From Desulfatibacillum alkenivorans DSM 16219 (GTDB lineage: Bacteria; Desulfobacterota; Desulfobacteria; Desulfobacterales; Desulfatibacillaceae), in contig NZ_FQZU01000001.1 in the NCBI RefSeq assembly GCF_900142135.1, forward strand, positions 285,653-349,652: a stretch of 64,000 nt of DNA, read 5' to 3'. Positions 9,259-45,700 of this stretch are shown piece after piece. The notes beneath the pieces are model-generated. The model did not search any database and was not told where the DNA came from. It was given only the letters and a program-made list of their open reading frames with translations. Positions within the stretch are counted from its first letter, which is position 1. Each line of letters starts with the position of its first letter. A program made the position numbers and the translations under genes.

Positions 9259-10647
9259 TTACTTGTTCACCACGCTTTTTAAATCCACGCCGTAGCGCTT
9301 CATCCGGTTCCAGACCGTCACGCGGGAAACACCAAGCAGCCTGGCCGCTTCGGTCTGGTTTCCGTTGGATTTTTCCAAGGCCTCGATCAGTTCGGTTCTG
9401 GCCCTGTCGTCCGGGCTCTGGTATTTCTCCGCGGGCGCCGGCTCCAGGCAGTCTACAAGGGGCGCTCCAGCCACGACCGGGGGCAGATGTCTGGGCTCGA
9501 TCAGGTCTCCATGGCAGGTCACAAAAGCGTATTCAAAAGCGCTTTTCAACTCCCGCACGTTTCCCGGCCATACGTGATTCACGATCATGCGCAGGGCCTC
9601 GTTGGATATGCCCGTAATGTTCTTGCCGCTTTTCAAGCGCGCCCTGGTTAAAAAATGGGTGGACAACAGGGGGATGTCCTCCCGCCTCTCCCGCAACGGC
9701 GGCAAATGGACGGGGATGACGTTCAACCGGTAATACAGATCCTGCCGAAACCGGCCCTCCCGAACCATTTGGCCGAGATCCCGGTTAGTGGCTGAAATCA
9801 CGCGAACGTCAATGGGGATGGGCTTGCTGGACCCCACCCGTTCAATGACCTTTTGCTCCAGCACCCTAAGCAGCTTGACCTGTGTGCTCAACGGCAGGTC
9901 CCCGACCTCGTCCAAAAAAATCGCGCCCCCATGCGCCGCTTCAAATCGGCCTGTGCGTTTTTTATCCGCTCCGGTGAAGGCGCCTTTTTCGTGCCCGAAC
10001 AACTCGCTTTCCAGCAATTGCTCGTTCAAGGCTGCGCAGTTGACCGCCACAAAGGGCTTTTGGGGATCCCGGCTGTTGTGGATGGCCCGGGCCGCCAACT
10101 CCTTGCCCGTCCCCGATTCTCCGTAAATAATCACGGGCGCATCCGATCCCGCTGCATCCCGGATCAGGGAGAATATCCTGCGCATGGGCTCGGACTGACC
10201 GATCAGCCCGAAGAAACCGTCCTCCCTGCGCAACTCGCGCTGGTATTCCTGGATGCGATTGTCCTTCTCGATCAATTCCGAAATGTCGGTGATGGTTTCC
10301 ACCGCTCCGATGGTCTCGCCGTCCGAATCCTTCAGCAATGAGGCGTTTTTCAAGACGGGAAAGGTCTTGCCGTCCCTTCGTACGATGTTGCACCGGCGTT
10401 CGTTGATCCGTCCCGTTGCAAACAAAGCGCACCAGTGCCCGCCCCCGTCTTTTTGAGCGATTTCGCAGATATCGCAATTAAGCATGGTGCACGACTTCCC
10501 CACCATTTCGCCTGCCTTGAAGCCGCTGATTCTCTCCATGCCCTTGTTGATGCTCACCACCACGCCCTGGTTATCCACAATCATCACGCCGTCGTGGATC
10601 GTGTCCACCACGGTTTTCCAATAGCTGTTCCAGTCCTGTTTAAGCAT
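9259..10647 (-). CDS. Sigma-54-dependent activator with Cys-rich PAS sensor domain
   Basis: This 462-residue enhancer-binding protein should open sigma-54 RNA polymerase promoters by ATP hydrolysis. The N-terminal PAS domain (about residues 8-125) carries five cysteines at 53, 58, 61, 73 and 86, inside CTMLNCDIC and downstream; this pattern suggests a metal, Fe-S or redox switch. The AAA+ domain follows, with Walker A GESGTGKE (176-183), the sigma-54 contact loop GAFTGA (222-227) and Walker B FLDEVGD (244-250). A Fis-type helix-turn-helix ends the protein (NQTEAARLLGVSRVTVWNRM). It is transcribed away from the barrel/ferredoxin/cytochrome operon across a 270-bp gap and is the obvious candidate regulator of it. 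What the PAS domain senses is unknown. Confidence 0.94.
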   Translation of the reverse strand: MLKQDWNSYWKTVVDTIHDGVMIVDNQGVVVSINKGMERISGFKAGEMVGKSCTMLNCDICEIAQKDGGGHWCALFATGRINERRCNIVRRDGKTFPVLKNASLLKDSDGETIGAVETITDISELIEKDNRIQEYQRELRREDGFFGLIGQSEPMRRIFSLIRDAAGSDAPVIIYGESGTGKELAARAIHNSRDPQKPFVAVNCAALNEQLLESELFGHEKGAFTGADKKRTGRFEAAHGGAIFLDEVGDLPLSTQVKLLRVLEQKVIERVGSSKPIPIDVRVISATNRDLGQMVREGRFRQDLYYRLNVIPVHLPPLRERREDIPLLSTHFLTRARLKSGKNITGISNEALRMIVNHVWPGNVRELKSAFEYAFVTCHGDLIEPRHLPPVVAGAPLVDCLEPAPAEKYQSPDDRARTELIEALEKSNGNQTEAARLLGVSRVTVWNRMKRYGVDLKSVVNK

Positions 10648-10803: not shown

Positions 10804-10820
10804 CTGGCCTGCTTTTTGTA
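10804..10820 (+). promoter_or_regulatory. Candidate sigma-54 promoter (-24/-12)
   Basis: CTGGCCTG-CTTT-TTGTA matches the -24/-12 consensus (CTGGCACG, 4 bases, TTGCA) with correct GG-to-G spacing, but has GT in place of the conserved GC. It lies about 100 bases before the outer-membrane barrel gene and faces it, next to a divergent sigma-54 activator. TTAA/GTTAAC-rich DNA at 10665-10700 could hold activator sites. Confidence 0.45.
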
Positions 10821-10917: not shown

Positions 10918-12552
10918 ATGAAAATGCGAAAATTGTGGACGACTCTCGCTGCTGCCTTGTTGCTGATCGCCTTTATGAGCCCAGTTTCGGCCCAGGAAGA
11001 CGAAGTGCAGGACATAACCAAAGAAACCATTGTAGGGCCGGGAAGCATTGAAGTGAAAACCGGCAAGGACGTGCTCATGAGTTTTGGCGCCACGGCGCGC
11101 TTGATTCCCACGGCGGAGTCCAACTGGGATTTCGGCCTGAGCGATAACACGGACAGCTTTTTGTTGGGGGGATTAAACAAGGATTTTTTCCGCACCCACG
11201 GCAATGAATCCGGTTGGGTGAAGGACAATTATATTCGGACGGAAGCCAAACTCCATTTCAACGCGCTGCCCAAGGACCGCAAATGGAGCTTTTACGCAGC
11301 CCTGGAATACGACCGCCCCCTGGATACAGCCACGGTGGATTCCCGAGGCGGCATGACCAATGACGACAGCAACTTCGGCCTGGAGCGTTTGCACGTCTCT
11401 TACGCTCTGCCGAGCAAGACCCGCTTTCATGCAGGCTGGGACGTCTGGCATCTGGACGCCATGGAAGGGGCCGGGCTGGTTTACGGGGACGATAATCCCG
11501 GATTCTGGCTAACCAGGGATTCCGACAAACTGGACATAAACGTGGGCTTTTTCAAATTGTCCGACAACGACATCGGCAGCGCCCCTAACTTCCTTTCCGA
11601 CGACGGCGACAACGACCGCACGGTGTACGCGGGATATCTGGCCTGGAAGCCGGACAAGATCAATAAGGTCAAGGTGCTGTACGCCTTTGACCGCATTCGG
11701 GACGTGCCCGCCAATGATTTGCTGAATTACCTGGCCGGGGCGCCCTTTGGAATCGCCGGCGGAATTCCCGACACCGACTCCCATCACGCCGGAATCTTAT
11801 ATACGGGAACTTCCGGGGGATTCTCCTGGATGGGCGAGGCGGTCTATCAGTTCGGCCAGGCCAAGGACGTGGGGCTGCAATACGATGACTACGACATCAA
11901 CGCCTACGCCCTGGCAGCGGATTTCTCCTATGATTTCAAGGAGCAGGCCGGTTTTCAGGTCAAGCCTCACCTGGGGATAATGTACACCTCGGGAGACGAC
12001 GACCCCTCCGACGACGAACTGGGCGGCTATGAAGGCGTCACCAACGCCCAGCGTTTCGCCAACGCCTGGGGCGGCGAGAACACCATTATCGGCGACACCA
12101 ACATGGTTCTGGGCTCCCTGATCTACGGATATTTGCCCGAGCTCTATGGAAACGGAACCCCGGTATTCACCGGCGGCGTGCAGAACTACACAGGCTTCGG
12201 CGGCGGCCGCGGCGACAACCCCGGCATGACCTTGTACAGCGCCGGCATAACCATCGCCCCAAAAAAGTTCCTGATCTTCCGGACCAACGTCAACGTGTTC
12301 AACTGGAACGAAGATTTTGAAATCTACAACCTGGTCAACCCGTTAAAAGGACCGTCCCCGGTGAGCAGCGGTTACGTGGGAACGGAATGGGACAACGAAG
12401 TCACCTTTGCGACTTCCAAAAACAGCTTCATCAAAGGACAGGCGTCGGCTTTTTTCCCCGGCGACGGCATTGAGGAGGCCACCGAAGCGCTTGGCGCGAA
12501 AAGCGACGATACCGCGACCAGGCTGGCCATGGAGTTCATCATCAACTTTTAA
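10918..12552 (+). CDS. Outer-membrane beta-barrel protein (porin-like), first gene of redox operon
   Basis: This 544-residue protein has a Sec signal peptide (about residues 1-23, ending VSAQ). The rest alternates short amphipathic beta-strands with Asp/Gly/Asn-rich loops, for example the strand series in KWSFYAALEYDRPL, TRFHAGWDVWHLD and TVYAGYLAWKP. It ends in Phe (MEFIINF), as outer-membrane barrels usually do. The start is ATG 10918, because AAGGAGGT stands 7 bases upstream; an earlier in-frame start would overlap that ribosome site. I do not recognise a specific family; alginate-export-like or generic porin are possibilities. It precedes the ferredoxin gene by 233 bp on the same strand and may supply outer-membrane passage for the substrate of the downstream redox complex (inference). 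Confidence 0.75.
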   Translation: MKMRKLWTTLAAALLLIAFMSPVSAQEDEVQDITKETIVGPGSIEVKTGKDVLMSFGATARLIPTAESNWDFGLSDNTDSFLLGGLNKDFFRTHGNESGWVKDNYIRTEAKLHFNALPKDRKWSFYAALEYDRPLDTATVDSRGGMTNDDSNFGLERLHVSYALPSKTRFHAGWDVWHLDAMEGAGLVYGDDNPGFWLTRDSDKLDINVGFFKLSDNDIGSAPNFLSDDGDNDRTVYAGYLAWKPDKINKVKVLYAFDRIRDVPANDLLNYLAGAPFGIAGGIPDTDSHHAGILYTGTSGGFSWMGEAVYQFGQAKDVGLQYDDYDINAYALAADFSYDFKEQAGFQVKPHLGIMYTSGDDDPSDDELGGYEGVTNAQRFANAWGGENTIIGDTNMVLGSLIYGYLPELYGNGTPVFTGGVQNYTGFGGGRGDNPGMTLYSAGITIAPKKFLIFRTNVNVFNWNEDFEIYNLVNPLKGPSPVSSGYVGTEWDNEVTFATSKNSFIKGQASAFFPGDGIEEATEALGAKSDDTATRLAMEFIINF

Positions 12553-12614
12553 ATGAGAGCATGGCGAGAACAGAAAACAAAGCCATCCATTTCTGTTCGA
12601 GCCTCCCCGGGCAA

Positions 12615-12642
12615 GGGACGGGCATCCGGCAATGCCCGTCCC
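12615..12642 (+). terminator. Strong hairpin between barrel gene and ferredoxin gene
   Basis: GGGACGGGCAT (12615-12625) and ATGCCCGTCCC (12632-12642) form a perfect 11-bp stem with a 6-base loop. No T-run follows, so it may only partly terminate transcription, or it may mark an mRNA end that sets the ratio of barrel to redox proteins. Confidence 0.5.
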
Positions 12643-12785
12643 GCCCAATAAATAAAATGGATCTATTTGTTGTTTATATGAGATTATGAAACAAATATTT
12701 GAAACGGATGTCCGGAGCAATGGCGCTTCGGACGCAATGAGCTGAACCTGTAAACACGCCGAGTTGAACAGAGAAGGAGGTTGGA

Positions 12786-13724
12786 GTGAACATTTCGCGC
12801 CGGTTTTTTATGAAAACGTCTGCGGTCGCTGTGGGAGGAGCAGTGACGGCAAAGGCGGGAACCGCGAAAGCGGAATCCCGCAACAGGGCGCCGGCTGATC
12901 CATTCGGGTGCCTGGTGGATTTGACCCAGTGTGTGGGCTGCAGAAAATGCGAGCAGGCCTGCAACGAGGTGAACCATCTGCCCGAGCCGAAAGTCGCCTT
13001 TGACGATACCCGGGTTCTGGACTGCAAGCGCAGGCCGGACCAAAACGCTTTTACGGTGATCAATCGCTACTATCCGGGGAAAAAAGACGAGCAAAATCGT
13101 CTGGTTCCTACCTACGCCAAGATCCAATGCATGCATTGCCAGGACCCCGCCTGCGTGTCCGCGTGCATTGTGGGCGCCCTGACCAAGCAGGAAAACGGGG
13201 CGGTCATCTACGATAAAAGCAAGTGCATCGGCTGCCGGTACTGCATGGTGGCGTGCCCCTTCGGCATTCCCGCTTACGAGTACGACCAGCCCTTCACCCC
13301 CGAAGTTCGCAAATGCACCTATTGTTTCGAGCGCATCAGCGAGGAAGGCGGCAAGCCCGGCTGCGCCAGCGTATGCCCGGTGGAAGCCATTACCTTTGGG
13401 AAGCGCGACACGGTGCTGGCCCTGGCCAAAGGTAAAATCAAAAAGGATCCCGGCCGCTACATCAATAAGGTTTACGGAGAAGAGGAAGTGGGCGGCACAA
13501 GCTGGATGTACATCAGCGAGCATCCTTTTGAAAAGCTGGGCTTTCTTTCCTTGCCCAAAAAGCCGTTGCCCACACTGCCCGAAACCATTCAGCACACCAT
13601 ATTCAAGTTCCTGTGGGCGCCCGTGACCTTGTTTGCGGCCCTGGCCGGGGGGATGTGGGTTTTTAATCGGAAGCAAATGACCGGTGAGGACATCTCGGAG
13701 GAAAGGGGGGCGGACAATGAGTAA
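12786..13724 (+). CDS. Tat-exported 4x[4Fe-4S] ferredoxin, HybA/DsrO-like electron-transfer subunit
   Basis: This 312-residue iron-sulfur protein moves electrons between a membrane quinone-interacting subunit and a periplasmic partner. The GTG 12786 start is supported by AAGGAGG 5 bases upstream. The N-terminus has a twin-arginine signal (SRRFFMKT). Four cysteine groups follow: CVGCRKCEQAC, CMHCQDPACVSAC, CIGCRYCMVAC and CTYC...CASVC, enough for four [4Fe-4S] clusters. A hydrophobic segment near the C-terminus (about 279-297) would anchor it in the membrane, as in HybA. The next gene (HybB/NrfD-like) overlaps its end by 8 bp, so the two should form a complex. Confidence 0.93.
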   Translation: MNISRRFFMKTSAVAVGGAVTAKAGTAKAESRNRAPADPFGCLVDLTQCVGCRKCEQACNEVNHLPEPKVAFDDTRVLDCKRRPDQNAFTVINRYYPGKKDEQNRLVPTYAKIQCMHCQDPACVSACIVGALTKQENGAVIYDKSKCIGCRYCMVACPFGIPAYEYDQPFTPEVRKCTYCFERISEEGGKPGCASVCPVEAITFGKRDTVLALAKGKIKKDPGRYINKVYGEEEVGGTSWMYISEHPFEKLGFLSLPKKPLPTLPETIQHTIFKFLWAPVTLFAALAGGMWVFNRKQMTGEDISEERGADNE

Positions 13725-14880
13725 TCACGCACAACCAAGACCCATAAACTCCCCCTTCTGGACGCCAGGGGTTTTTGTCATGCTGGCCTTTATGGCGGCT
13801 GCGGCGCCCTTTATCCTGGCCCGGTACATCAAGGGGCTGGGGTTTGTAACCAACCTGACCGACATCTACCCGTGGGGCCTGTGGATCGGCGTTGACGTCG
13901 CCAGCGGCGTGGCTTTGGCCGCCGGCGGGTTCACCACGGCGGCCCTGGCGCATATTTTCGGCAGGCATCATTACGAGGCGGTCACCCGGCCGGCCCTGCT
14001 GACCGCCATGCTGGGCTACACCTTTGTGGCCGTGGGATTGTTCGTGGATATCGGGCGGTCCTGGGCCATCTGGAAGCCGGCGATTTTCTGGCAGCCCAAT
14101 TCCGTGCTGTTCGAGGTGGCCATGTGCGTCATGATCTACCTCACGGTGCTTTACATTGAATTTTTCCCCATTGTTGCGGAGCGCCTTCGCGGCAAGTTCC
14201 CTATCGTGGATTCTCTGGACAAGATTATTGACAAGTTCATGTGGCTTTTCATCATCCTGGGAGTCGTTCTTTCCTGCATGCATCAATCGGGCCTGGGGTC
14301 CCTCATGCTCATCGCGCCCACCAAGCTGCACCCTCTGTGGTACACGCCCATCCTTCCCCTGCTTTTTCTCACCTCGGCCATATCCCTTGGCTATCCCATG
14401 GTGGTTGTGGAAACCATCATCGCTACATCGTCCCTCAAGCTGGATCGCGAAATGGACGTTTTAGGACCCCTCACCCGAATCACCCTGCTGCTGCTTGGAA
14501 TTTACGGCGGCCTCAAGATCGGCGACATGCTGGTCCGCGGGACCTACGTTTACCTATGGGACGGATCGGCCCAGTCTTTCGCCTTTATGGCGGAAGTGCT
14601 CCTGGGCGTCATCATACCCTGGTGCATGCTCTGGATTCCCAAGGTCAGAAAAACTCCGGGGCTGCTGTTTACAGCCGCAGCCATGGTTGTCGGGGGCGTG
14701 GTGTTAAACCGCATCAACGTATTTATTGTGGGATACCAGCCGCCCTTTGCACAACACTCCTACTATCCGGCAATCGGAGAAATTCTGGTGACCGCCGGCC
14801 TGGTTGCGTCCATCATGTTCCTGTACAGGTTAGCGGTGACCTTCCTGCCTGTTCTTAGCGCCCGGAGAAAGGAGGCTTGA
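13717..14880 (+). CDS. HybB/NrfD-family integral membrane quinone-interacting subunit
   Basis: This polytopic protein of 387 residues has about ten hydrophobic segments and a HybB-like start (FWTPGVFVMLAFMAAAAPFI, then YPWGLWIGVDVASGVALAAGG). Proteins of this family exchange electrons and protons with menaquinone in the cytoplasmic membrane and pass electrons to a ferredoxin subunit. ATG 13717 is chosen: a purine-rich GGAGGAAAGGGGGG tract precedes it and it overlaps the ferredoxin gene by 8 bp; longer in-frame starts would extend into that gene. The cytochrome gene begins 4 bases after its stop. The direction of electron flow cannot be read from the sequence. Confidence 0.93.
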   Translation: MSNHAQPRPINSPFWTPGVFVMLAFMAAAAPFILARYIKGLGFVTNLTDIYPWGLWIGVDVASGVALAAGGFTTAALAHIFGRHHYEAVTRPALLTAMLGYTFVAVGLFVDIGRSWAIWKPAIFWQPNSVLFEVAMCVMIYLTVLYIEFFPIVAERLRGKFPIVDSLDKIIDKFMWLFIILGVVLSCMHQSGLGSLMLIAPTKLHPLWYTPILPLLFLTSAISLGYPMVVVETIIATSSLKLDREMDVLGPLTRITLLLLGIYGGLKIGDMLVRGTYVYLWDGSAQSFAFMAEVLLGVIIPWCMLWIPKVRKTPGLLFTAAAMVVGGVVLNRINVFIVGYQPPFAQHSYYPAIGEILVTAGLVASIMFLYRLAVTFLPVLSARRKEA

Positions 14881-14884
14881 TGCC

Positions 14885-17023
14885 ATGCGGACTCTATTTA
14901 AACCCCTGTTGATTATTTCCGCCTCCCTGATCCTGATTGCAGGAGGCTTGTTCTTCATAAACTACGACGCCGGGAGCACGCTCTCCCAGGCTTTTGCCGC
15001 GGCTCCGGAAAAAGCGCCTACAAAGGTCCCCACTCCGCCCAAACCGCCTGAAAAGGTTAACCCGGACGGCACTCCCTGGTCCCCGGCCGCGCAAGTTGCG
15101 GCCATGGAGCGGGCCAAGGAAGTCCCTCCCTTCATAAAAAATGTCAAGGACGAAACCGCCTGGGAGCGCAAGCAGCGCCTGGGTGATGACGCTCCTACGC
15201 TGAAAGATCAGGACCACGCCTACGTGGTGCTGAACAGCCCCATCGTCAACAAGGACCAGGACATGTACGAGCCCGTGCGGTTCATGCACAAGAAGCACGC
15301 CGCCGTAACCGGCGACTGCCTCAAGTGCCATCACGCCAGCGCGGACGAGCCCGGCGCGGCGGAAACCGCCAAGTGCTCCGCCTGCCATCAGGAGGCCTTT
15401 AACCCGGAGTTTCCTGAACGCCCGGGCCTGAAGGCCGCGTATCACAGGCAGTGCATGACCTGCCACGAAGAGCAGGAAAAAGGCCCCCTGGGCTGCACCG
15501 ACTGCCATGGCAAGAACGTCCCGGATCACTCCAAGCTGGTCAAGCTGCCCAAGAACCCCAGCCCCACCCAGGTGACCACCGAATGCCTGCGCTGCCACGA
15601 AGACCAGGGCGAAGACATGCTTAAAAGCGCCCACTGGCTGTGGAAAGGCCCGTCCCCTTACACCGTGGACGGCGAAAAACGCGTGGACTCGGGCAAGGCC
15701 ACCAACACCATCAACAACTTCTGCATCGCCCTGCCTTCCAACTGGCCCCGATGCACAAGCTGCCATGCGGGCTACGGCTGGAAGGACGAGACCTTTGACT
15801 TTACAGATAAAAGCCGCATTGACTGCCTGATCTGCCACGATACCACGGACACCTACGCCAAGGTTCCCACGGACGCCGGCATGCCTTATCCCCAACTGGA
15901 TCTTGTCAAGATTGCGGAGCACGTGGGCAAGCCTTCCCGCAAGACCTGCGGGGACTGCCACTTTCAGGGCGGCGGCGGAGACGCGGTCAAGCATGGAGAC
16001 ATGAACGCCATCCTGTACTACCCGACCCGAAGCTGCGACGTGCACATGGGCGACCTGGACTTCCAGTGCCACGACTGCCATAAAACCCGGAACCATAAGA
16101 TTTCCGGCCGCTCCCTGTCCCTGCCCGTGGCCGAAGGCGCCCGAAGCTGCGAGGATTGCCATACCAGCCAGCCTCACCACGGCAACGATCTTTTGGATCA
16201 TCACCTGAACCGCCACGGCGAGCACATCGCCTGCATGACCTGTCACAGCCCGGTTTACGCCAAGTGCAAGCCCACCAAAACCTGGTGGGACTGGTCCGAA
16301 GCCGGGGACAAAAAACGCAAGGTGAACAAAGACAAATACGGCATGCCCGACTACTTCTGGAAAAAAGGCGAGTTCCTTTGGGACGAAAGCGTTCAGCCCA
16401 CTTACGCCTGGTACAACGGCACGGTGGAGCGCTACTTGATCGGCGACGAAATCGACGACGACGGCGTGACGGAAATCACCCGGCCCGTGGGCGGAATCAA
16501 GGATTCCAAGTCGCGCATCGCGCCTTTCAAGATCATGGCAGGCAAGCAGCCCGTGGACAAGAACAACAAGACGCTTTTAACGCCCAACCTGTTCGGCCCC
16601 AAGGGATATTGGAAGAACGTGGATTGGGATCAGGCCTTTAAAGTCGGCGCGGAAGCGGCGGGCATCGAGTACTCCGGCGAATACGACTGGGAGGAAACCA
16701 AGATGTATTGGTCCCTCAACCATGAAGTCACGCCCAAGGAAATGGCGCTCTCCTGCGTGCAGTGCCACGAAAGCCTGACCCAGGAGCGCTCGTGCGACCG
16801 GTGCCATCAGGACAAGCGGGATGTGGACTTCAAGGCCCTTTCGTACAAGGGAGTCGACTTCAAGACCATGGCCGCCAGGGGCCGCGACACCCTGGATCTG
16901 GTGGAAAAGACCGATTACATCAACTTCAAGGCCCTGGGCTACAAGGGCGACCCCATCATCTACGGCGGCCGCTTTAAGCAACTCCCCCTGGGCTGGCATA
17001 AGGACGGAAAGGAAGAAAAATGA
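14885..17023 (+). CDS. 13-haem c-type cytochrome: tetrahaem c3-like part fused to octahaem tetrathionate-reductase-like part
   Basis: This 712-residue periplasmic cytochrome has an N-terminal hydrophobic signal/anchor (about residues 7-26) and a Pro/Lys linker. It carries 13 CxxCH haem-binding motifs, at about residues 145, 164, 190, 204, 234, 290, 314, 355, 395, 422, 450, 624 and 637. The first four, with HKKH before them, look like a class III (cytochrome c3) tetrahaem domain. From residue 230 on it matches the octahaem tetrathionate-reductase family: NNFC, CTSCHAGYGW, CHFQGGGGDAVKHGD, DVHMG and PTKTWWDWSEAG are hallmark segments. Shewanella OTR can reduce tetrathionate, nitrite and hydroxylamine in vitro. 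Here the membrane ferredoxin/HybB pair just upstream probably connects it to the quinone pool. The true substrate is unknown. The flavodoxin start overlaps its stop by 4 bp. Confidence 0.92.
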   Translation: MRTLFKPLLIISASLILIAGGLFFINYDAGSTLSQAFAAAPEKAPTKVPTPPKPPEKVNPDGTPWSPAAQVAAMERAKEVPPFIKNVKDETAWERKQRLGDDAPTLKDQDHAYVVLNSPIVNKDQDMYEPVRFMHKKHAAVTGDCLKCHHASADEPGAAETAKCSACHQEAFNPEFPERPGLKAAYHRQCMTCHEEQEKGPLGCTDCHGKNVPDHSKLVKLPKNPSPTQVTTECLRCHEDQGEDMLKSAHWLWKGPSPYTVDGEKRVDSGKATNTINNFCIALPSNWPRCTSCHAGYGWKDETFDFTDKSRIDCLICHDTTDTYAKVPTDAGMPYPQLDLVKIAEHVGKPSRKTCGDCHFQGGGGDAVKHGDMNAILYYPTRSCDVHMGDLDFQCHDCHKTRNHKISGRSLSLPVAEGARSCEDCHTSQPHHGNDLLDHHLNRHGEHIACMTCHSPVYAKCKPTKTWWDWSEAGDKKRKVNKDKYGMPDYFWKKGEFLWDESVQPTYAWYNGTVERYLIGDEIDDDGVTEITRPVGGIKDSKSRIAPFKIMAGKQPVDKNNKTLLTPNLFGPKGYWKNVDWDQAFKVGAEAAGIEYSGEYDWEETKMYWSLNHEVTPKEMALSCVQCHESLTQERSCDRCHQDKRDVDFKALSYKGVDFKTMAARGRDTLDLVEKTDYINFKALGYKGDPIIYGGRFKQLPLGWHKDGKEEK

Positions 17024-17496
17024 AATCATTAGTGGTTTACTCAAGCCAATCCGGCAATACGGAAAAACTGGCCAAAGCCGTGTACGAAAATCTTGACGGC
17101 GAGAAGGACATATTCCCCCTGGCCCAGGCGCCCGAAGCCGGCGACTACGATCTGATCGGCGTGGGCTTCTGGCTCCAGGCGGGCAAGCCCGACCCCAAAT
17201 CCCAGGAGTATCTGGCGAGCCTGCCTGAAGGCGCCAAGGTTTTCCTTTTCGCCACCCACGGCGCGGCCAAAGGCTCGGCCCACGCCAGCGGGGCCATGGA
17301 GTTCGCCAAATCCCTGCTGAAAAACGCAGAGGTTGCGGGAGCCTATTCCTGCCAGGGCGAGGTCAACCCCAAGGTCCTGGAGAAGGTCAAGGCGAAACCC
17401 GAGCCGCCTCCGTGGATCGGCGACGCCCCTGCAGCAGCAGGGCATCCGGACGCCAAGGACCTGGAGGAACTGGCGGAAATCGTCCGCGCCTTATAG
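17020..17496 (+). CDS. Flavodoxin-family protein
   Basis: This 158-residue cytoplasmic flavoprotein has the FMN phosphate-binding loop SSQSGNT at residues 8-14 and a flavodoxin fold (YDLIGVGFWLQAGKPD, then KVFLFATHGAA). It has no signal peptide, in contrast to the exported subunits before it. Its ATG overlaps the cytochrome stop (ATGA), so it is translationally coupled to the respiratory operon. Flavodoxins are one- or two-electron carriers, so it may serve a cytoplasmic step linked to the same pathway. The specific subfamily and partner are not identified. Confidence 0.88.
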   Translation: MKSLVVYSSQSGNTEKLAKAVYENLDGEKDIFPLAQAPEAGDYDLIGVGFWLQAGKPDPKSQEYLASLPEGAKVFLFATHGAAKGSAHASGAMEFAKSLLKNAEVAGAYSCQGEVNPKVLEKVKAKPEPPPWIGDAPAAAGHPDAKDLEELAEIVRAL

Positions 17497-17654
17497 CCGA
17501 ACAGGCAAAGGCGAAACATAAAGGCTGTACATGGGGAACTCGGCGTTACCTCCAATCTCCTCCCCATTAAAAGGGCTGGCGCTCTTTTCCGGCGATCGAG
17601 CGCCGGCCCAAACATAAAGGCAGCCAGGGAGCAATCCCGGAAGGAGGTTTGATA

Positions 17655-18308
17655 ATGAGCGAGTCTTTCAAAGGCATAGCCATCGTGGCCTGCGGCACCC
17701 TGAGCCCGGAGCTTAAGCGTCTGCAGGAGGAAGGCTTTTTGGATACGGAATATTTGTACTTCACCAAGCCGGGACTTCATCAAAACGTCCATGAACTGGA
17801 GAAGCAGTTGCGCAACCAGGTCGCCAAGGCCAAGGAAAAGACGAACAAGGTCATTGTGGTTTACGGCGGCAAGTTTTGCTACGTGAACGCGGACGAGCCC
17901 ACCAAGACCATGCAGAACATCATCGAAAGCCTGGGCGGCAGCGTAAAAAGAATTCAGGCCACCCACTGCATGGACATGATAGCCGGCGAGGAGGAACGCG
18001 CTCAAATCGCGGACGAACTGGCCGGCGGAGAACTGGTCTGGTGGATGACGCCCGGCTGGGTCAAGTTTCGGCATCAGGTTTTTGACGGCTGGGACCAGGC
18101 CCTGGCCAATGAGAATTTTCCCCGGCATTCAGGCGGCGCCATCGTCCTGGACGGCATCGGATTCATGGACGAGTATATGACGGAAAAACCGGAGGAGTTT
18201 TTGGAATACTGCGACTGGATGGGCATTCCCATGCAAAGCAATCCGGGAAACCTGGACCGGCTGAAGAGTCTTTTGTTGGAACAGAGACAGCTTTTGGATG
18301 GGGAATAA
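17655..18308 (+). CDS. DUF1638-like protein
   Basis: This 217-residue soluble protein resembles DUF1638 proteins: an IVACGTLSPEL start, a VIVVYGGKFCY strand, the THCMDMIAGEEER segment and a WWMTPGW motif. ATG 17655 is preceded by AAGGAGGT with 6-base spacing; a TTG two codons earlier is less likely. In methanogens, relatives of this family occur near corrinoid methyltransferase genes, but their reaction is not known to me. The gene is 158 bp downstream of the flavodoxin on the same strand and may be the last gene of the sigma-54 operon. No metal site can be claimed beyond two candidate Cys/His spots (FCY, THC). Function is unassigned. Confidence 0.65.
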   Translation: MSESFKGIAIVACGTLSPELKRLQEEGFLDTEYLYFTKPGLHQNVHELEKQLRNQVAKAKEKTNKVIVVYGGKFCYVNADEPTKTMQNIIESLGGSVKRIQATHCMDMIAGEEERAQIADELAGGELVWWMTPGWVKFRHQVFDGWDQALANENFPRHSGGAIVLDGIGFMDEYMTEKPEEFLEYCDWMGIPMQSNPGNLDRLKSLLLEQRQLLDGE

Positions 18309-36680: not shown

Positions 36681-36719
36681 TCATTGTTTGACCTGGGCTT
36701 TTTTCAAGGGGAAATGATT

Positions 36720-39700
36720 ATGAAGGCTATATCCTCCATCCTATCGGCGTTTTTGACTTTGGCCTGTGTCGCCATGCTGGCCCTGCCGGCAATGGCTACG
36801 ACAGTCGCCAGCGAAATCTACCCGGCGGCAGCCTACGACTCCAGGGCCGGGGTCAACCAGCACCTTTTGGTTTACCTGGTGGACGGCGAGGTTTCTTCGC
36901 CGTACACCCGCTCAGGCAGCCATATTGCGGGCCAATTTGTGGACTCCCTCTCTGGCGCCGCCATAGGAGACCCTTTCCCCATCACCGAAGCCTCAGCGGC
37001 ATTTGAGACCTTCCCTGACGGCGCCATGCCGGACGTCGCATTTGTGCAAACATTGACCGGCGGCGTCTACTGCGTCGTCTGGGCGGAAGACCTCCGCAAC
37101 ACGGATGCGCAAGTGTATGCGCAACTGGTGGACGCGGACACCGGGGCGCTTATCGGCTCCAACCGCATGGTGTCCTCTTCCGACAATTTGGAGACGAAAG
37201 TTTTTGCAGCCGTAGCCGCAAACAATCAGGGATCGGATGCATCCCGGTTCATGGTCGCGTGGTCCGAACTCAACCCCGTCTCCGGCGGGTACGACATCAC
37301 CGGCGCTCTGATGACGGCGGATGGGTCGGTTGACACCCCGGTCGCCGTGTCAGACGCCGCCGGCGACCAGTCTTGGCCTGATGTCGCTTATGACTCGATC
37401 AATGAACGCTACCTTGTCGTTTTTAAGAGCTACCAATCCTCCCGTTATCGCATTCACGGGCAATATATGGAGGACGGCGGCGGAAGCGCTCTGGCCCCCA
37501 TGGGAACTTCCACCTCCGCAAATTTCGCCATTTCCGATTCAACCGGAGATTGCGAAGCCCCTGCCGTCGCCTACGACGGCTACACCCAGAAGTTCGCCGT
37601 TGTTTGGGAGGACGCCAGAAATAATTCGGAAACCATGTATGACATATACGGGCAGGTGGTTGTTTCGACCACACGCCAGATGGCGAATGACTTGGCCATT
37701 TGCCAAAACCCCTACTGGCAGGATCTTCCGTCCTTGGATTCGGGAGATTTGGGCGGCGTGGGCATTGTGTGGCATGATTATCGGTTCAATCCCACTGGTG
37801 GTTCGAAAAACCCCACGGGATCGATTTTCGGCCGGGCGCTTTCTTTAGCCGACTATTCCCTGAGTCCTGAAAGGGAGGTGGCCATTGCGTTGCCGGAAGG
37901 CGATGCCGGCCATCCCGTTATCAGCAGCGCAGGGCTTGACGGCTCCCTGATTGCCTACCCGGCTGGCAGCTCCCCATCCAGCATCGAGTGGGTTAATATG
38001 GGGACGTCCCAACTCACTGAGACCCCGGACGACTTCCTGATCGCCCGCTGGGCCATGAATGAAGGCGCGGGGGCAACCGCGAATGATTCCACCCCCAACG
38101 GCTATGACGGAAATATCAACAAGGCCCAATGGGCCGTGGACAAAGACGGCGCCCAAGGCCGCGCCCTGTATTTTGACGGCGCCAGCTATGTCTCCGTTCC
38201 CAATTCCTCCAGCTTTAATAACGCCATAAGCTCCGCCGTCACCCTGGCAGGCTGGATTAAGCTGGATACGGACCAGAACAGCTATCAACCCATGATTGCC
38301 AAAACCGTATCCGGCAATCAGGCTTTTTGGCTGGGAACCTATTACGGAAGCCCCAAATTCAGGATTTCCACCGGCGGATCGACCTGGGACGGCGAGATTT
38401 ACGCCGACAGCATCTATCTGACTCCCCAAAAGTGGTATCACCTGGCCGGAACCTATGACGGCGAGACCATGAATTTGTACCTTAACGGATCCCTGGTAGG
38501 AAGCTACTCCCTTTCCGGGACTGTTTACGCAAGCTCCGCCTCCTTAACCCTTGGCGCGGCCGACGGAATGTTTCTTGAGGGCGCCCTGGACGACGTACGC
38601 GTTTATGGCAAGGCTCTTAATTATATCGATATCGCAGAGACCGCCGGCCTGGATGCCCTGATTCGCGGCTTCGTTTTTCAGAACAACCCGCAAACCCAGA
38701 GCGAAGATCCGCTGTCAGGCGTGGCCATTGAAGCGGTGAGCAACAAGGACGGCGCTTTCTACACCGCCGTTAGCGACGCCAACGGGTATTATAATCTGTT
38801 TGTACCGACCGGCTGCTACGAACTCACCATGAATCCTGTGGGCGCATCCCCGTACATTCCTTTCCAAGCCGCGGACTATGCCGAGCCCGCCGGCGCTCAT
38901 GAAGGCGGCAGCATTTACGATTATGACCTGACTCCCGGCGGCCCGGTCAACGGCGGCGTATTCACCATCACCGGCGGCATCCAGGATTATTATTCGAACC
39001 CGGCGGGCGGCGTTGTTTTTTACCGCAATGACGACCTGAACATTTATTATGAAGTGCAAACGCAGGACGGCGTTTACACCCTGACCAATCTGCCTGGCGG
39101 GGAAGGCGTTATTGGCGTCCGGCCCTGGGACGATGAATTAGGCGCACAAGCCATGACCGTGGATATTTCGGCGGACTCCGTAGTTACCTTTACGCTGACC
39201 GGCGGCGTCCCTGTGTTCGGCACGGTCTCGGACGAGGACGGATACCCCCTGGAAGGGGTGGCTGTCACCTATTATGCGCCCTATCAACCCTTAACGCTTA
39301 CCGAATACACCGATGAAAACGGCGAGTTCAACATTCTCGGCGCCCCGGATTCCGGGCCGGGATACGTTATCGCCAGCCCGGACCCGGATACGCGTTATTG
39401 CGGCTCCGGCAGACAATACGTGTCTTACGACAACCTGCACGGCGGCATGGCGGCGGGTTTGATTCGCTTGCAAAAGGGCGTGATGGTCAGCGGTAATGTA
39501 TATGACGCCGCAACCGGGGATTTGACCTCCGGCGTGAATGTGGAGGCAGGCGGCCTTTCCATGCATTCGCAAGGCCGTACATGCGGCGGCGCCTACTCCC
39601 TGGTCATTCCGGAAGGGACTCACGCCATATACAGCGGCGGATTTTTCTACGACAATGCGGAACTTGCTTGGTGGCCTTATACGGAGCATCCTGAAAGCCT

Positions 39701-42700
39701 GATAGCCGGCAACCCGGTCACCGTAACGGTTTCAGCAGCCGACGTCATGTCCCGCACCATGGTTGTCTCAGCGCCGGACATGTACGTGACGCTCATTGAC
39801 GATGGCGGAGCCCTTGAGGTGACCGTGGTGGACGAGAATTCCTCCTGGGCCGGCTCGGGCGGAGAATTTGTCTGTGCGGCTTACGTGCCGGGAACCCTGT
39901 CCGGAACCTTCGACCCCAATGTGACGGTGCAGAATCCCGTCTCCACCATGGTGTTGACCCCAACCATGGGCGCCCCCACGTATATGGCGCCTTTTCCCCT
40001 GGGACAGAGTTACGATTTGTACCTGGCCTGGGTCCAGAGCGACGGATACGGCGGGACAACCACCACCATCCTGGACAGGGCCTTTAACGTGCCCATCACA
40101 CCCACTTCGGCCATCACCTTCACCTTGCCCGCGGCGTGCAATAGCGTGGCTTACGGCGAAGTCACGGCGGGCTACACCACATACAGCGGCGCTTTGGTGT
40201 ACCTGACGGATGTGAACGGAGATATTGCGGGCTGGGGAACCAGCGGCATGTCCGGCTTCATGTTTTATAACGTCCCTGTGGGCGCGGATTACACGGTGAC
40301 CGCCTATGCACCGGAAGACGGCGCCACAGACTCGAATACGGGATACGAAGCCACCGAGGGCGGCGCCGATAATTTCGGCTACCTGGAACTCACGAAAACC
40401 GCCACTCCCGCTTTGGCGCTGATCGAAACCCATCGGGTCAACGCAGACGGGGACGTCTTCGACGGATCCCGCACCTCGGGCGGCGATTATCATTACCAGG
40501 TCAGAAACTCCGTCTGGTTCGAACCGCCGTACGGCGTTCTGCTGAATGTTGACGACATCAGCGCCTCCCTGGAGCCGGGAAGAAGCACGGAAAACGTCAT
40601 GGCTTCCGAAGATGTTATGAACGATGGAATGTGGGCAACCTACAACTACATCCCGGAAAACAACGATAACGTGTGCGGACCCCAATGCACGGAAATCTGC
40701 TCCAACCCTGTATATAATTGGGGCGGGGAGCATTCCTCCATCTATTTTAACAGCGACATGTCGGACGGCCTGGAATACTCCATGGTGGACAGCGCCCAAT
40801 CAACCTGGGCCGGCGGCATTGTGGTCACCAGGACTGCAGACGTGACTTCCGGCGCAGGCAATTTTGTGCAAGTAGTCACCGTTTCCGCCAAGGTCACGGA
40901 CGGAACGCCCGGGGACGTATACACCGGAACGCTGCAACTCAGGGTTTATAATACGGATCACATATTGGGAAATGCCGATGTGCGGGACTGGACGCCCGGC
41001 GTTGACGAAAACGGTTATGATGTGGACGACGGATTCAACAGCGCCTGGGGATTCGCCTATTACAACATTGAAAACCCCATCATAGGCCATGAGTACTCCT
41101 ACTCCAAATATGTGGACGTTTCGGTCAACGGGAACGTGGCCAACGACGTGTTTTACATGCCCAGAACCCGGGTGCGTTTGACCGAGTATCTGGGCGCGCC
41201 CAATTATTCCGTCGATCAGTACGGAATTTACCTGAGCGAGTCCGGGACGCTGGGAGACATGCATCTCATGTCTAACGCCACTCCCATGGAGTTTTTGCCC
41301 GGCTACCTCAGGAAACTCCACCGCCGGGAAGTGCAGCATGAGATGAAAATCGGCGAGATCGGCGCAACCAGGCCCGAGTTGACGGCCTCCTATCCCCAAA
41401 ACGGCGACATGGGCATTGCATCAACCGCGGTAATTTCCATGACCATAGACAAGCCCGGCATGTGGGGCGGGTACTTCCTGAACGTTGTGGACCAGTGGGG
41501 CAACCTCATTGCGGACACGGACCTGGGACCCTATCCTTATAATGTCAGTTTCGTGGACTCTGTCAGCCAAAACGACACCATGAATTTCGCACCGGACGGC
41601 GGCTTTGCTCCGGGAACGGCCTATGGCGTTACGGCGATGTTGCGGGACTCCACTTACTACCGCATGCCGACCATAACGGATAAGGACCTGATCAACTTCT
41701 GGTTCGCCACCGCACCCGAGCCTGGAGACGTCACTCCTCCGGAAGTGGTTTCCACCAGGCCGTATGACGGAGAAACCGGCGTGCCCACCATGATCACGGA
41801 CAAGATGGACTCGTACCAGATCGTGGTCAGCTTTTCTGAAGCGGTGAAGTACATGAGTACGGAACTGACCACCATGTACGTTTTGGACGGCCCTGGCGGA
41901 TCATCCCTGGGGACGATTCCCATCACCAGCAAGTGGATGGGGCATCGGTTCGCCATCTTCCCGAACGGCGAGCTGGCGGACAACACCTGGTATCGCATTG
42001 AACTCTTTAAAGGTAATGCAACAACTGGCATTCAGGATCTTTCATCCAACCTGATTGACGCCAATTACGTTTTTGAATTCTCCACAGGAGACTACGACGC
42101 CCAGGGCCCTGTCCTTAGCATGCCTCTGGACGGCGCCACGGACGTGGCGGTCAAGAATCCCTCCATTGTGCTGTACGCGGACAAGGAACTGGACCCGTCC
42201 ACTCTGATCCTGGGAACCACCCTGCACCTGTACGCCGGGGACGAAGACATTTCCTCCCTGTTTGAAGTGCAGTACTTAAAGGCCCGTCAGGGCGTGCAGT
42301 TTTTCCTGAACGCAGAAAACCAGTTCACGGTGCTCCCCAACGATACCGTGATCACTCTGATCGTGGATACGGAACTGCCCGACGCCGTCACCGACGCGGC
42401 GGGCAACGCACCCGTGGGAGGAACAGCTTCTCAGTCCTTCTCATTCAGGACCGTACCTACATTCGGCAATTCCATGCCGTCTTTCTACAATATATTAACG
42501 CGCGTTGGGCCGCAGTATCCCCAGGTGTATAACACCGTCAACGGCTACTACGTCAACGCATCCGCCAATATTGCGGACGACGGATACGACAACCTTACTT
42601 ACGGCGCTAACCGAAAGTTGGAGAGCTCCGTGGATCCCATGTACGGGCGGGTTATTACCATGACCATCGGCGATTTTTCCGCCGCCATGGAAGGCTACAC

Positions 42701-45700
42701 CGAATCATATTGGAATTATCAGACGTGGGCCTATGACATGCCTCCGGGCGCCAACCTGATTCCCGGCGATTACGACCTGGAAATCACGGCGTACGACACC
42801 GCATGCCATTCCGCGACGCTCACGCAGCCTGTCCGGGTTTATCAGTTCTTGCCCGGCCTGGAGAGCCCGGCGGACGGAAGCCTGGTTGTAGCCCCGGTGA
42901 CCGTGGAATGGTCTCCCATAAACGGCGAAGCCGCAGGCTACTACATCCAATTTTCCCATAACAGCTTTGCCTCGTGGTTCGCCAGCTACTTCATCCCGGA
43001 GGACGGCAGGACCGGGAACTACACGTTCACCATTCCTGAAGATGCGGATCTTGGCGGCGTGGGCGCAACCGTGCAATGGCGAGTGATCGCCGTCGCCAGT
43101 CTGGATCAGCCTTTCAGCCCATTGGGCGGCTCCATAGCGCCCATGCAGGAATTTACGCTCGGCGAGGATTCGGATCCCCCGTGGCTGTCTGATAGCTCGC
43201 CCTACGGCGGCGAAACCGGCGTGGAGCCCACGGCCGGCATCTATCTGACCATAATGGACGATGTTTCCGGCGTGGACGTAAGCACGCTCGACGTGCAGTT
43301 GAACAGCATTTCCTTAACGGGCTTGACTGTCGACGATTCCAATCCCAATGAGGTGTACGTTTCCTACACGCCCGAAACCCCCTGGTACGCCGAGGATTAC
43401 CATACGTTAAAGGTGTATTGTCAGGACTACCAGGGCCAGAACATTGATCCTTACCCGACGGTCATCACGTTTACGGTGCGGGCCAACCGGGGCGAGGCGG
43501 ACCCCATCATGGTGCCCACGGATTTCGCCACAGTGCAGGACGCTTTGGACTCGGCCACCTATGGAGACCATATCCTAGTTGAAAACGGCAGCTACAGTGA
43601 AAGCCTGTCTTTGACCGGCCGCCACACAGGCATAACCCTCACCGGTTCGGGCTACCAAAAAACCACCCTGCAGGGTCCGGGAACCGCGCCGGTCATCAAC
43701 GTGGAGAATTCCAGCGAGATCATCATCCGCGACATGACCATTACAAACGGCACTTACGGCATCAAGGTGAACAATGCCGATATTGTGGATATTATCAACT
43801 GCCGGATCGCTGGAAACACCACAGACGGCGTCAACATAACCGGCAGTTCCTATTATGACCTCACCAATAACCTGATTTACGGCAACTTGAACTGGGGCGT
43901 TTACCTGCACAGCACCGTCGGCATGAAAGCCGGCAGCCCCTTGGAAGCGGAGCTTCTGAACAACACCATCGCGGATAACTACCAGGGCGGAATTTACGCC
44001 TACAGCAGCAGCGTCTACGCTTATTACAACATTGTGGCCGATAATACCGGAAACGGCGTTTACGATGATGTGGCCGATTTCTATTGGGATTACAACCTGG
44101 TTTACGGCAACGGCGTAAACTACACGGACGTGACTCCCGGCGCCAACGACGTCAACGAAGATCCTTTGTTTGTGGATACCGGCAATCTTGCTGTTTTGGA
44201 TAATGATTACCATCTGCAGAATGGATCTCCAGCCATGGACATGATTCCCAACGCAGCTCCGGGGTCTGAGCCGCCGCCCGCGGCGCCGGGTGAAGACCTG
44301 GACGAAAACATCCGGCCTCAATTCAATCCGGGCGGGGATTACGACGCAGGCTGCTACGAGATGACCGATGATTCGGCTCCGTTCATCGAATGGGCGGTTC
44401 CCGGAAACGGGGATACGGGCGCCTCGCCCGCCGGCCCCTGGCATCTGGAATTGAAGGATTACGGCTCCGGCATTGATGAGACGACTTTGTACGTGGGAGT
44501 CAACTCGGGCTACCTGGTTGCAGACGTCGTCACCTCATCCACAGTGACCGGATCCTTGTTGGTTGACATCTATCCGCAGTCGTCTGCTGGGTTGGAAGAA
44601 TCCGTCTGCATTGACGTTACGGTTTCGGATAAGGCGGGCAACTCCATGAATCAGGCGTCCTATTGCTTCACCACCAGGGGCAACACGGGCCTGTACGTCA
44701 ATCCGGGAGACTCCATCAGCGAAATCCTGCAAACCGCGGTCAGCGGGGACGTGGTTTACGTCAATCCCGGCGAATACGTGGACAACCTCGTGGCGCCTTA
44801 CATTCAAAGCGGCGTCGTTCTGACCAGTACGGGCGGCCCGGAGGTGACGAAAATCACCAGCGCCTGGGCGCTCACCCAGGTGACGACTGGCGAGGGAACG
44901 ACTTTTGTGAATGCGCCGGTGGGACCGGTCGTGTCCATTGAGGATGTTGACTCGTTTACAATCAGCGGCTTCACCCTGGAGTCGGGATCGGACATTGTGC
45001 AGGTGCATTCCGATGCGGACAACGTTCTGATTTCCGGCAATGTCATTTCCGGCTGCGTCGGCCATGTGGGCGGCGGCGGGGCCATCATGTGGCTCTCCGG
45101 CAGCGGTATAGACCTGACCTCCGAAGGAAACTGCCGTATCGAGAATAACCTCATCATGCACAACGGCTGGGGGATCACTGTCGAGGATAACAACACGGAA
45201 AACCCGTATGATCCGGTTATTGTCAACAACACCGTGGTTTCCAACTCCGTCTCCGGCGTTTACGTGGTGGACGGCGCCCCCGATATTTTTTACAACATCA
45301 TTGCCTATAATAGAAATTACGGCCTTGAGGTGGATGACGGCGCGGTCAATGATTACAACTGCCTGTACTCCAACACGGCGGGCAACTCCATCGGAGTGAC
45401 CCTGGGCGCAAATACCATCCAGGACGATCCTCTGTTCATAGATCCTGCGCACAATGACTACCAGGTGGAGGGCTACTCGCCCTGCGTGGACGCCTTTGAT
45501 GAGTCCGAGGCCTCGGCCTCCCCCGAAGCGCCCAATGTGGACATCCTGGGCGTTTCCAGGCCTCAGGGACAGGGTTACGACCTTGGTTGCTACGAAAAAA
45601 CGGACGGCAACCCTCCGTACCTGTTGTGGGCGGTCCCGGACGACGGCGACATGGACGCCAATCCCTCCGGTCCATGGCGTTTTGAACTGGACGACAATGA

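Follow-up and report, generated by a model that had tools for sequence, protein, structure and literature searches.

A three-gene module made up of a tail-anchored ferredoxin, a HybB-like membrane protein and a cytochrome of the octahaem tetrathionate reductase (OTR) family has already been reported in print; there, it is called octahaem and given without a function, no conserved flanking genes are found and its role is left unclear (PMC10924467). A member of this module is encoded by Desulfatibacillum alkenivorans DSM 16219, in a stretch of 64,000 nucleotides (contig NZ_FQZU01000001.1, positions 285,653 to 349,652), which we call the window and in which the cytochrome gene is one of six genes at positions 10918-18308. 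Interest is added by the function that the wider family suggests for the cytochrome, and by a single residue on which that function may be tested.

By arrangement, the nearest named system is Ohc of Desulfovibrio vulgaris, which consists of the Fe-S protein OhcB, the octahaem cytochrome OhcA and the haem b protein OhcC, with the divergent sigma-54 activator DVU3142 (PMC4641369). The window has a comparable cytochrome, Fe-S partner and divergent activator, but its operon shows no cytochrome b match and holds a HybB-like subunit instead of the haem-b membrane subunit. In the Hmc and Nhc complexes, too, a multihaem cytochrome is joined by a ferredoxin and an NrfD-like subunit of the HmcB/HmcC kind, but their cytochromes have 16 or 9 haems where the window has an OTR core, and the operon of the window has no cytoplasmic branch. 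OTR of Shewanella oneidensis (PDB 1sp3) shares with the window cytochrome the complete 8-haem core, a lysine and an aligned cysteine; unlike OTR, the window protein has an extra N-terminal 4-haem module, a thirteenth haem and adjoining ferredoxin and HybB-like genes. For TsdA, a cysteine at the side of the haem is proposed to cleave tetrathionate via a Cys-S-thiosulfonate (PMC5146829). Such chemistry of a cysteine beside a haem is common to TsdA and the model proposed below, as an analogy of mechanism and not of family, TsdA being a dihaem enzyme in which the cysteine is a haem ligand.

A reading-frame check combined with family profile scans found all six open reading frames (ORFs) at 10918-18308. 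These are listed here together with two codons of the cytochrome gene that are central to the argument.

10918..12552, plus strand: barrel gene, Alginate_exp (PF13372), with a signal peptide-like N-terminus
12786..13724, plus strand: ferredoxin gene with a GTG start, Fer4_11, HybA/HmcB-like
13717..14880, plus strand: HybB/HmcC/NrfD-like gene, NrfD (PF03916)
14885..17023, plus strand: 13-haem cytochrome gene, TIGR04315, 13 CXXCH motifs
15722..15724, plus strand: codon of the conserved cysteine, Cys280 (Cys64 of 1sp3 by alignment), TGC in the window copy
15989..15991, plus strand: codon of the haem-ligand lysine, Lys369 (Lys153 of 1sp3 by alignment), lysine in 62 of 62 aligned rows
17020..17496, plus strand: flavodoxin gene, Flavodoxin_3 (PF12641), BilS-like
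17655..18308, plus strand: DUF1638 gene, PF07796

The gene set that an earlier, sequence-only reading of the window had put forward (barrel, ferredoxin, HybB, 13-haem cytochrome, flavodoxin, DUF1638) is confirmed in its ORFs, its families and its 13 CXXCH motifs. The tight spacing described there holds from ferredoxin to flavodoxin, with an 8-nt overlap of the ferredoxin and NrfD genes, a 4-nt gap between the NrfD and cytochrome genes and an ATGA overlap of cytochrome and flavodoxin, but it does not extend to the barrel gene, which ends 233 nt before the ferredoxin gene, or to the DUF1638 gene, which starts 158 nt after the flavodoxin gene, each being set apart by a hairpin. The accompanying statement that no complex with this set was known to be described is not supported, and the system cannot be called undescribed, because the three-gene core is in PMC10924467. 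The same three kinds of gene occur in both, with the ferredoxin directly before the quinol oxidase, a Tat signal and C-terminal anchor on the ferredoxin and a HybB/NrfD-like gene directly downstream of it; for the Desulfosarcina ovata example, the legend also mentions a gene for a sigma-54 regulator. The window differs in that its cytochrome has 13 CXXCH motifs and is not octahaem, and in the addition of barrel, flavodoxin and DUF1638.

With the cytochrome (P0004) as query, homologs were found at 1e-30 in 84 of 395 genomes of the phylum and in 22 of 40 relatives. Over 428 different genomes, the 13-haem type, recognized by a match that covers the N-terminal module, is present in 10 and a type fused to NrfD in 10, with one genome (G421) carrying both. 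A Desulfomicrobium and a Desulfovibrionales assembly are among the genomes with the 13-haem type, and the other genome of the host genus (G370) has an 8-haem OTR only. The genes for ferredoxin, NrfD and cytochrome are contiguous in all 10 untruncated other 13-haem loci (L059-L067 and L079 in our numbering; L080, a truncated locus, was left out of the locus map), and all 11 untruncated core loci, the window included, code for 13 haems. Barrel, flavodoxin and DUF1638 stand beside none of these 10 other loci. The conserved unit is thus ferredoxin, HybB-like protein and 13-haem cytochrome, not six genes; the gene-order search that had been suggested as a check on the six-gene system retrieves this core, and none of the 20 other loci of the core or fused type has the full set. 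Measured by the refuting conditions attached to the six-gene proposal, the full set lacks conservation and its core is already in print.

In a tree of 81 OTR cores, obtained by a quick search, the 12 rows of the 13-haem type fall into a single clade (SH-aLRT 99), whose sister (99) is a second clade (99) made up of the 10 fused rows. The haem plan of the fused proteins is the same, except that nine of the 10 rows have CX3CH at one motif, which is CXXCH in row L015. These proteins unite the membrane quinol oxidase and the multihaem OTR in one chain of about 1,085 amino acids (L068-L071, L074, L076). In the locus map, L073 and L077, whose stretches stop within or shortly past the fused gene, still count among the 10 fused loci. 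Around 36 8-haem OTRs, the flanking 1.5 kb or so include an NrfD gene in no case and a cytochrome b gene in 19. Since NrfD accompanies the 13-haem and fused types and none of these 36, the label octahaem in PMC10924467 may reflect the annotation name of TIGR04315.

The likeness of the cytochrome to OTR and its description as a quinone-linked periplasmic multihaem protein, both noted earlier from the sequence, are borne out by a complete OTR-type core, with a score of 528 bits against TIGR04315 (octahaem tetrathionate reductase family, cut-off 375) and an E value of 4e-140 against 1sp3. Its exactly 13 CXXCH motifs are arranged, behind an N-terminal anchor or signal, as a 4-haem c3/c7-like module (residues 145, 164, 190 and 204), an OTR core of which all eight motifs align to 1sp3 (234, 290, 314, 355, 395, 422, 450 and 624) and one extra C-terminal haem motif (637). 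The N-terminal module resembles the last unit of HmcA, with a whole-protein E value of 4.7e-23. The residue equivalent to Lys369 is lysine throughout the 62 OTR rows of the first alignment, the window being counted twice. In the 2004 structure, Lys153 of 1sp3 is reported to be the haem ligand and Cys64 to lie near the active site, and the chain numbering of 1sp3 fits both. Lysine ligation of the OTR active-site haem is stated in PMC12285233.

At the position of Cys64, the first alignment, which contains no row from L003 or L025 and has the window twice (WIN and L001, the latter dropped for the tree), shows 55 cysteines, six in-frame TGA codons and one threonine in its 62 rows. The tree set of 81 OTRs, composed of these 62 rows minus the window duplicate plus 20 OTRs picked for their TGA, has 54 cysteines, 26 TGA codons and one threonine; 26 of 81 is not a rate, because 20 of the 26 were chosen for their TGA. 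Each of the 26 genes has only one TGA from its first haem motif to its last, and this TGA is at the Cys64-equivalent residue. It is followed by a SECIS-like stem of at least 7 pairs in 26 of 26 genes; read at the corresponding place, 1 of 53 Cys-type genes has such a stem, and codon shuffles gave a mean of 4.4 pairs. The copies with TGA and stem (L021-L024, L034, L046, L145-L164) are predicted to carry selenocysteine (Sec) at this residue. Cysteine and selenocysteine have changed at least five times on the tree, with four changes forced by starred branches and one located within the 13-haem clade (L034). The window copy, with TGC at codon 280, is not a selenoprotein. A search for tRNA-Sec gave matches in all 24 genomes, both Sec-type and Cys-type, and rings in all 14 controls, five of them over the cut-off; this search permits the use of Sec but does not discriminate. 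TIGR04315 is listed as a GenBank-annotated selenoprotein without a motif in a selenoproteome review (PMC13188914), and the occurrence of Sec in the OTR family is therefore already known. No paper placing Sec at the Cys64-equivalent residue turned up in the literature listings, the passages from that review included.

The two partner proteins point to a connection with the quinone pool. The ferredoxin, with 18 cysteines and of the four-cluster type by family, carries a twin-arginine motif and a C-terminal transmembrane segment (275-293), and is predicted to be a periplasmic, membrane-anchored protein of the HybA/HmcB kind that is exported by way of its Tat signal; its profile scores are 335 bits for HmcB (cut-off 420) and 254.5 for HybA (cut-off 263). 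The NrfD-like protein scores 332 bits against PRK10881 (HybB, cut-off 450) and 267 against HmcC (cut-off 550), has 10 hydrophobic stretches, of which the final two overlap, and gave no hit at E 0.001 among PDB sequences. Membership of Hmc was rejected, with the cut-offs for HmcB and HmcC missed by these scores and that for HmcA missed as well (82 of 400 bits), and a link to Hydrogenase-2 was rejected likewise, the HybA and HybB cut-offs being missed and no hydrogenase being encoded by the seven genes between 9259 and 18308. Subunits of the NrfD type are described as quinone-interacting, with putative ion-conducting pathways (PMC8076601), so that energy conservation would be possible.

Genes of sulfur metabolism accompany several relatives. 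In six of 10 fused loci, the cytochrome gene is directly followed by genes for a PhsA-like molybdoenzyme and an Fe-S subunit of the TtrB/PsrB kind (L068-L071, L074, L076; the copy of L076 scores 536 bits against PhsA, cut-off 694), and L072 has the Fe-S subunit without the PhsA-like gene. Further downstream, four of the six loci (L068, L069, L070 and L076) have a three-domain rhodanese, and L073 has a single rhodanese. Relatives of the three-domain protein lie beside six of the 36 8-haem OTRs (L047-L050, L052, L056), and wider stretches of rhodanese-bearing 8-haem loci show the order CYC1, RHOD, OTR, cytochrome b in five cases, with no CYC1 in line in L168. On another contig, the host genome has a second OTR copy (L078, G000:C88:1-15000), an ohc-like locus with a HybA-like protein, an 8-haem OTR and a cytochrome b. 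The locus also encodes a sigma-54 activator, a transporter of the ACR3/SBF kind and a protein that resembles CoA-disulfide reductase (398 bits, cut-off 579). The host, which has dsrA (615 bits, cut-off 393), is probably a sulfate reducer.

The reading that we prefer, and to which we would give an even chance of being correct, is that the core acts as a membrane-bound quinol:polythionate oxidoreductase, with tetrathionate as the best guess for the substrate and with attack by Cys or Sec near the Lys-ligated haem. The HybB-like protein would oxidize menaquinol and pass electrons to the Fe-S clusters of the tail-anchored ferredoxin, from where they would travel through the N-terminal tetrahaem module and the OTR haems to the active site. 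There, Cys280, close to the haem ligated by Lys369, would attack the S-S bond and release thiosulfate, after which two electrons would restore the cysteine from the Cys280-S-thiosulfonate, in line with the proposal for TsdA. Because a cysteine exchanges with selenocysteine at a fixed place in OTR, a nucleophile would seem to fit better than nitrite chemistry. The wiring is more certain than the substrate, the class of which is a call that could fall either way. Among the acceptors considered by the sequence-only reading (a sulfur or nitrogen oxyanion, or an extracellular acceptor), a sulfur oxyanion is nevertheless the one we favour, with a confidence that stops at evenly balanced. More tentatively, and with the chances somewhat against it, the whole OTR family may consist of haem-chalcogen enzymes in which Cys or Sec attacks S-S oxyanions near a Lys-ligated haem, with, in the phylum of the host, a quinol-wired 13-haem form and a fused form that relays with the PhsA-like thiosulfate reductase and rhodanese from polythionate over thiosulfate to sulfide.

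Several observations weigh against a polythionate substrate or against the chemistry suggested for it. The links to sulfur come mainly from the fused sister clade and the 8-haem relatives, and neither the PhsA-like gene nor the three-domain rhodanese was found beside any of the 10 other 13-haem loci; partial exceptions are L060, where the opposite strand carries a rhodanese/metallo-beta-lactamase gene some 1 kb beyond the cytochrome, and L066, with a different molybdoenzyme about 4 kb upstream (best match PhsA, 299 bits, cut-off 694). In the fused homolog L015 (locus L072), threonine replaces the conserved Cys or Sec, and a change of function is possible there. This homolog also has a long branch, and in its locus an arylsulfotransferase gene lies near by and no PhsA-like gene directly downstream. 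That Cys280 lies close to the haem is deduced from the alignment and from what is reported of the 1sp3 structure, because AlphaFold2 gave a poor model of the cytochrome (pLDDT 37 with a five-row alignment; 33 for the barrel from a single sequence). For TsdA, residual activity is retained when the cysteine is absent (PMC5146829). Finally, nitrite and hydroxylamine are further in vitro substrates of S. oneidensis OTR (PMC4911364, PMC4335978), whose physiological substrate is given as undetermined in the latter, and no match to NrfA (PF02335) was detected in the host genome, which leaves room for a role in nitrite reduction.

These last points are the ones that speak for a menaquinol-fed nitrite or hydroxylamine reductase, used in respiration or detoxification and standing in for NrfA, of which a full-length match is present in only two of 19 genomes of the 13-haem/fused group. 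We nevertheless consider this function unlikely, if worth keeping in mind, since Cys or Sec occupies the Cys64-equivalent position in 80 of 81 rows and rhodanese or PhsA-like neighbours occur at part of the related OTR loci. To our knowledge, no such Cys/Sec residue occurs in multihaem nitrite or hydroxylamine reductases. Thiol or selenol chemistry does not single out tetrathionate, so the same chain might instead reduce another soluble oxidant, such as selenite, arsenate, disulfides or sulfite, and the ACR3/SBF-like transporter of the ohc-like locus would suit such a role; that is rather improbable, given that the neighbours scanned, which were a selection only, include no recognised dedicated arsenic or selenium reductase and that rhodanese and PhsA-like neighbours point to sulfane sulfur. 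The direction of electron flow could also be the reverse, from periplasmic cytochrome c3 (fed by H2 or formate) through the cytochrome to menaquinone, as in an Hmc/Nhc-like electron entry with the OTR core as a relic or a wire. The best profile scores of the two partner subunits (HmcB/HybA and HybB/HmcC) and the resemblance of the N-terminal haem module to the last HmcA unit agree with this; the retained Lys and Cys/Sec of the OTR core, the missed Hmc cut-offs and the lack of a further Hmc-type subunit in the operon make it doubtful, and we rate its chances as slim.

The remaining two explanations depend on the genes around the core. The barrel matches Alginate_exp over residues 264-395 only (37 bits, cut-off 25, E 1.9e-9). 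Its homologs at 1e-20 occur in 35 of the 395 genomes, beside none of the 20 other core or fused loci, and are separate from the cytochrome gene in all eight loci inspected (L096, L104-L106, L138-L141). That cytochrome and barrel together form an extracellular conduit, passing electrons across the outer membrane to minerals, would accord with the location of the barrel gene between regulator and ferredoxin in the window, with DUF3373 barrels in a like place in five 8-haem OTR clusters (L168, L171-L174) and with a weak barrel relative (83 bits) about 4 kb from the 8-haem OTR of L183. A conduit is very improbable all the same, with no second multihaem cytochrome in the window, a barrel that does not accompany the cytochrome in the other loci and a complete OTR core that has been kept. 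A porin-cytochrome conduit of the Mtr type was rejected on the single multihaem cytochrome of the window and the lack of conservation of the barrel with it. Since DUF3373 barrels take a like place, a porin adjoining OTR may be a recurring need. The barrel of the window, a porin-like accessory outer-membrane protein, is probably a local porin for the substrate. A dedicated complex or pathway to which the products of all six genes belong, a possibility raised by the sequence-only reading, has a chance close to negligible: the ATGA overlap of cytochrome and flavodoxin and the flavodoxin and DUF1638 genes after the fused cytochrome of L073 are in its favour, set against the absence of the full set from every other locus compared and the distance of most DUF1638 homologs from the cytochrome.

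DUF1638 homologs at 1e-30 were detected in 33 of 395 genomes. Flavodoxin and DUF1638 follow a fused cytochrome in L073 only, and DUF1638 alone is near that of L075. In nine of 30 loci taken from this homolog search, an OYE-type gene lies within about 1.5 kb of DUF1638. L075 and L113 encode a RACo-like protein near DUF1638, and in L179 its neighbours are flavodoxin and a pyridine-nucleotide oxidoreductase; DUF1638 loci at times also hold a sigma-54 activator. In alphaproteobacteria, DUF1638 has been linked, together with a RamA-like protein, to the reactivation of cobalamin (PMC5764234, PMC12478193). The recurrent neighbours could possibly represent a corrinoid-reactivation module, and it is conceivable that flavodoxin and DUF1638 feed a branch of corrinoid reactivation that is separate from the respiratory complex. 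We infer that both are cytoplasmic passengers or helpers and not subunits. DUF1638 is present in six of 13 genomes of the 13-haem/fused group, against the 33 of 395 overall; as four of the six belong to one genus (g58), no weight is placed on this, nor on the corresponding figures for the barrel, three of 13 against 35 of 395.

Control of the operon by sigma-54 is probable, and the following elements of the window bear on it.

9259..10647, minus strand: sigma-54 enhancer-binding activator (PAS, AAA+, Fis HTH; PF00158 240 bits, PAS, HTH_8), divergent from the operon
10805..10820, plus strand: candidate -24/-12 sigma-54 promoter before the barrel gene, score 17.3 (95th percentile of shuffles 17.5)
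12615..12642, plus strand: hairpin between barrel and ferredoxin genes, z -3.2, 0 of 200 shuffles as stable
12721..12736, plus strand: candidate sigma-54 site before the ferredoxin gene with a poor -12 element, score 18.0 (95th percentile of shuffles 17.5)
17573..17609, plus strand: hairpin between flavodoxin and DUF1638 genes, z -2.3, 5 of 200 shuffles as stable

Both intergenic hairpins are without a T-run and neither was picked up in a terminator scan. The candidate site before the barrel gene scores below the shuffle level and the one before the ferredoxin gene barely above it; in 15 other regions scanned, clear sites above the shuffle level were found in L060, L062, L063, L068, L076 and L077. 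A divergent sigma-54 homolog is the nearest recognized gene in five of the 10 other 13-haem loci, at 0.24-2.6 kb from the ferredoxin gene (0.24 kb in L062 and L063, 0.6 in L067, 1.1 in L060 and 2.6 in L059; the gene of L065 is co-directional and was left out of this count), and in the fused-type loci (L068-L077) such a gene lies at about 0.5 kb in seven of 10. The activator at 9259-10647, which the sequence-only reading does not mention, is likely the regulator of the operon. In its PAS domain, C53, C58, C61, C73 and C86 are kept in 13 of 13 aligned regulators of the operon type, the window included, and this five-cysteine domain is likely a metal, Fe-S or thiol sensor. Elsewhere in the window, positions 36684-48941 of the plus strand form one open frame of 4,085 amino acids which, judged by its length, probably encodes a giant surface or repeat protein.

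The exchange of Cys and Sec, the rhodanese and PhsA-like neighbourhoods and the presence of a dedicated quinol oxidase make the question of the OTR substrate directly testable. If the preferred reading is true, polythionate respiration would gain a defined quinol-linked haem enzyme, besides the routes that use molybdenum (Ttr) and TsdA, and in this branch of cytochromes 13 haems would have to replace the published octahaem label.

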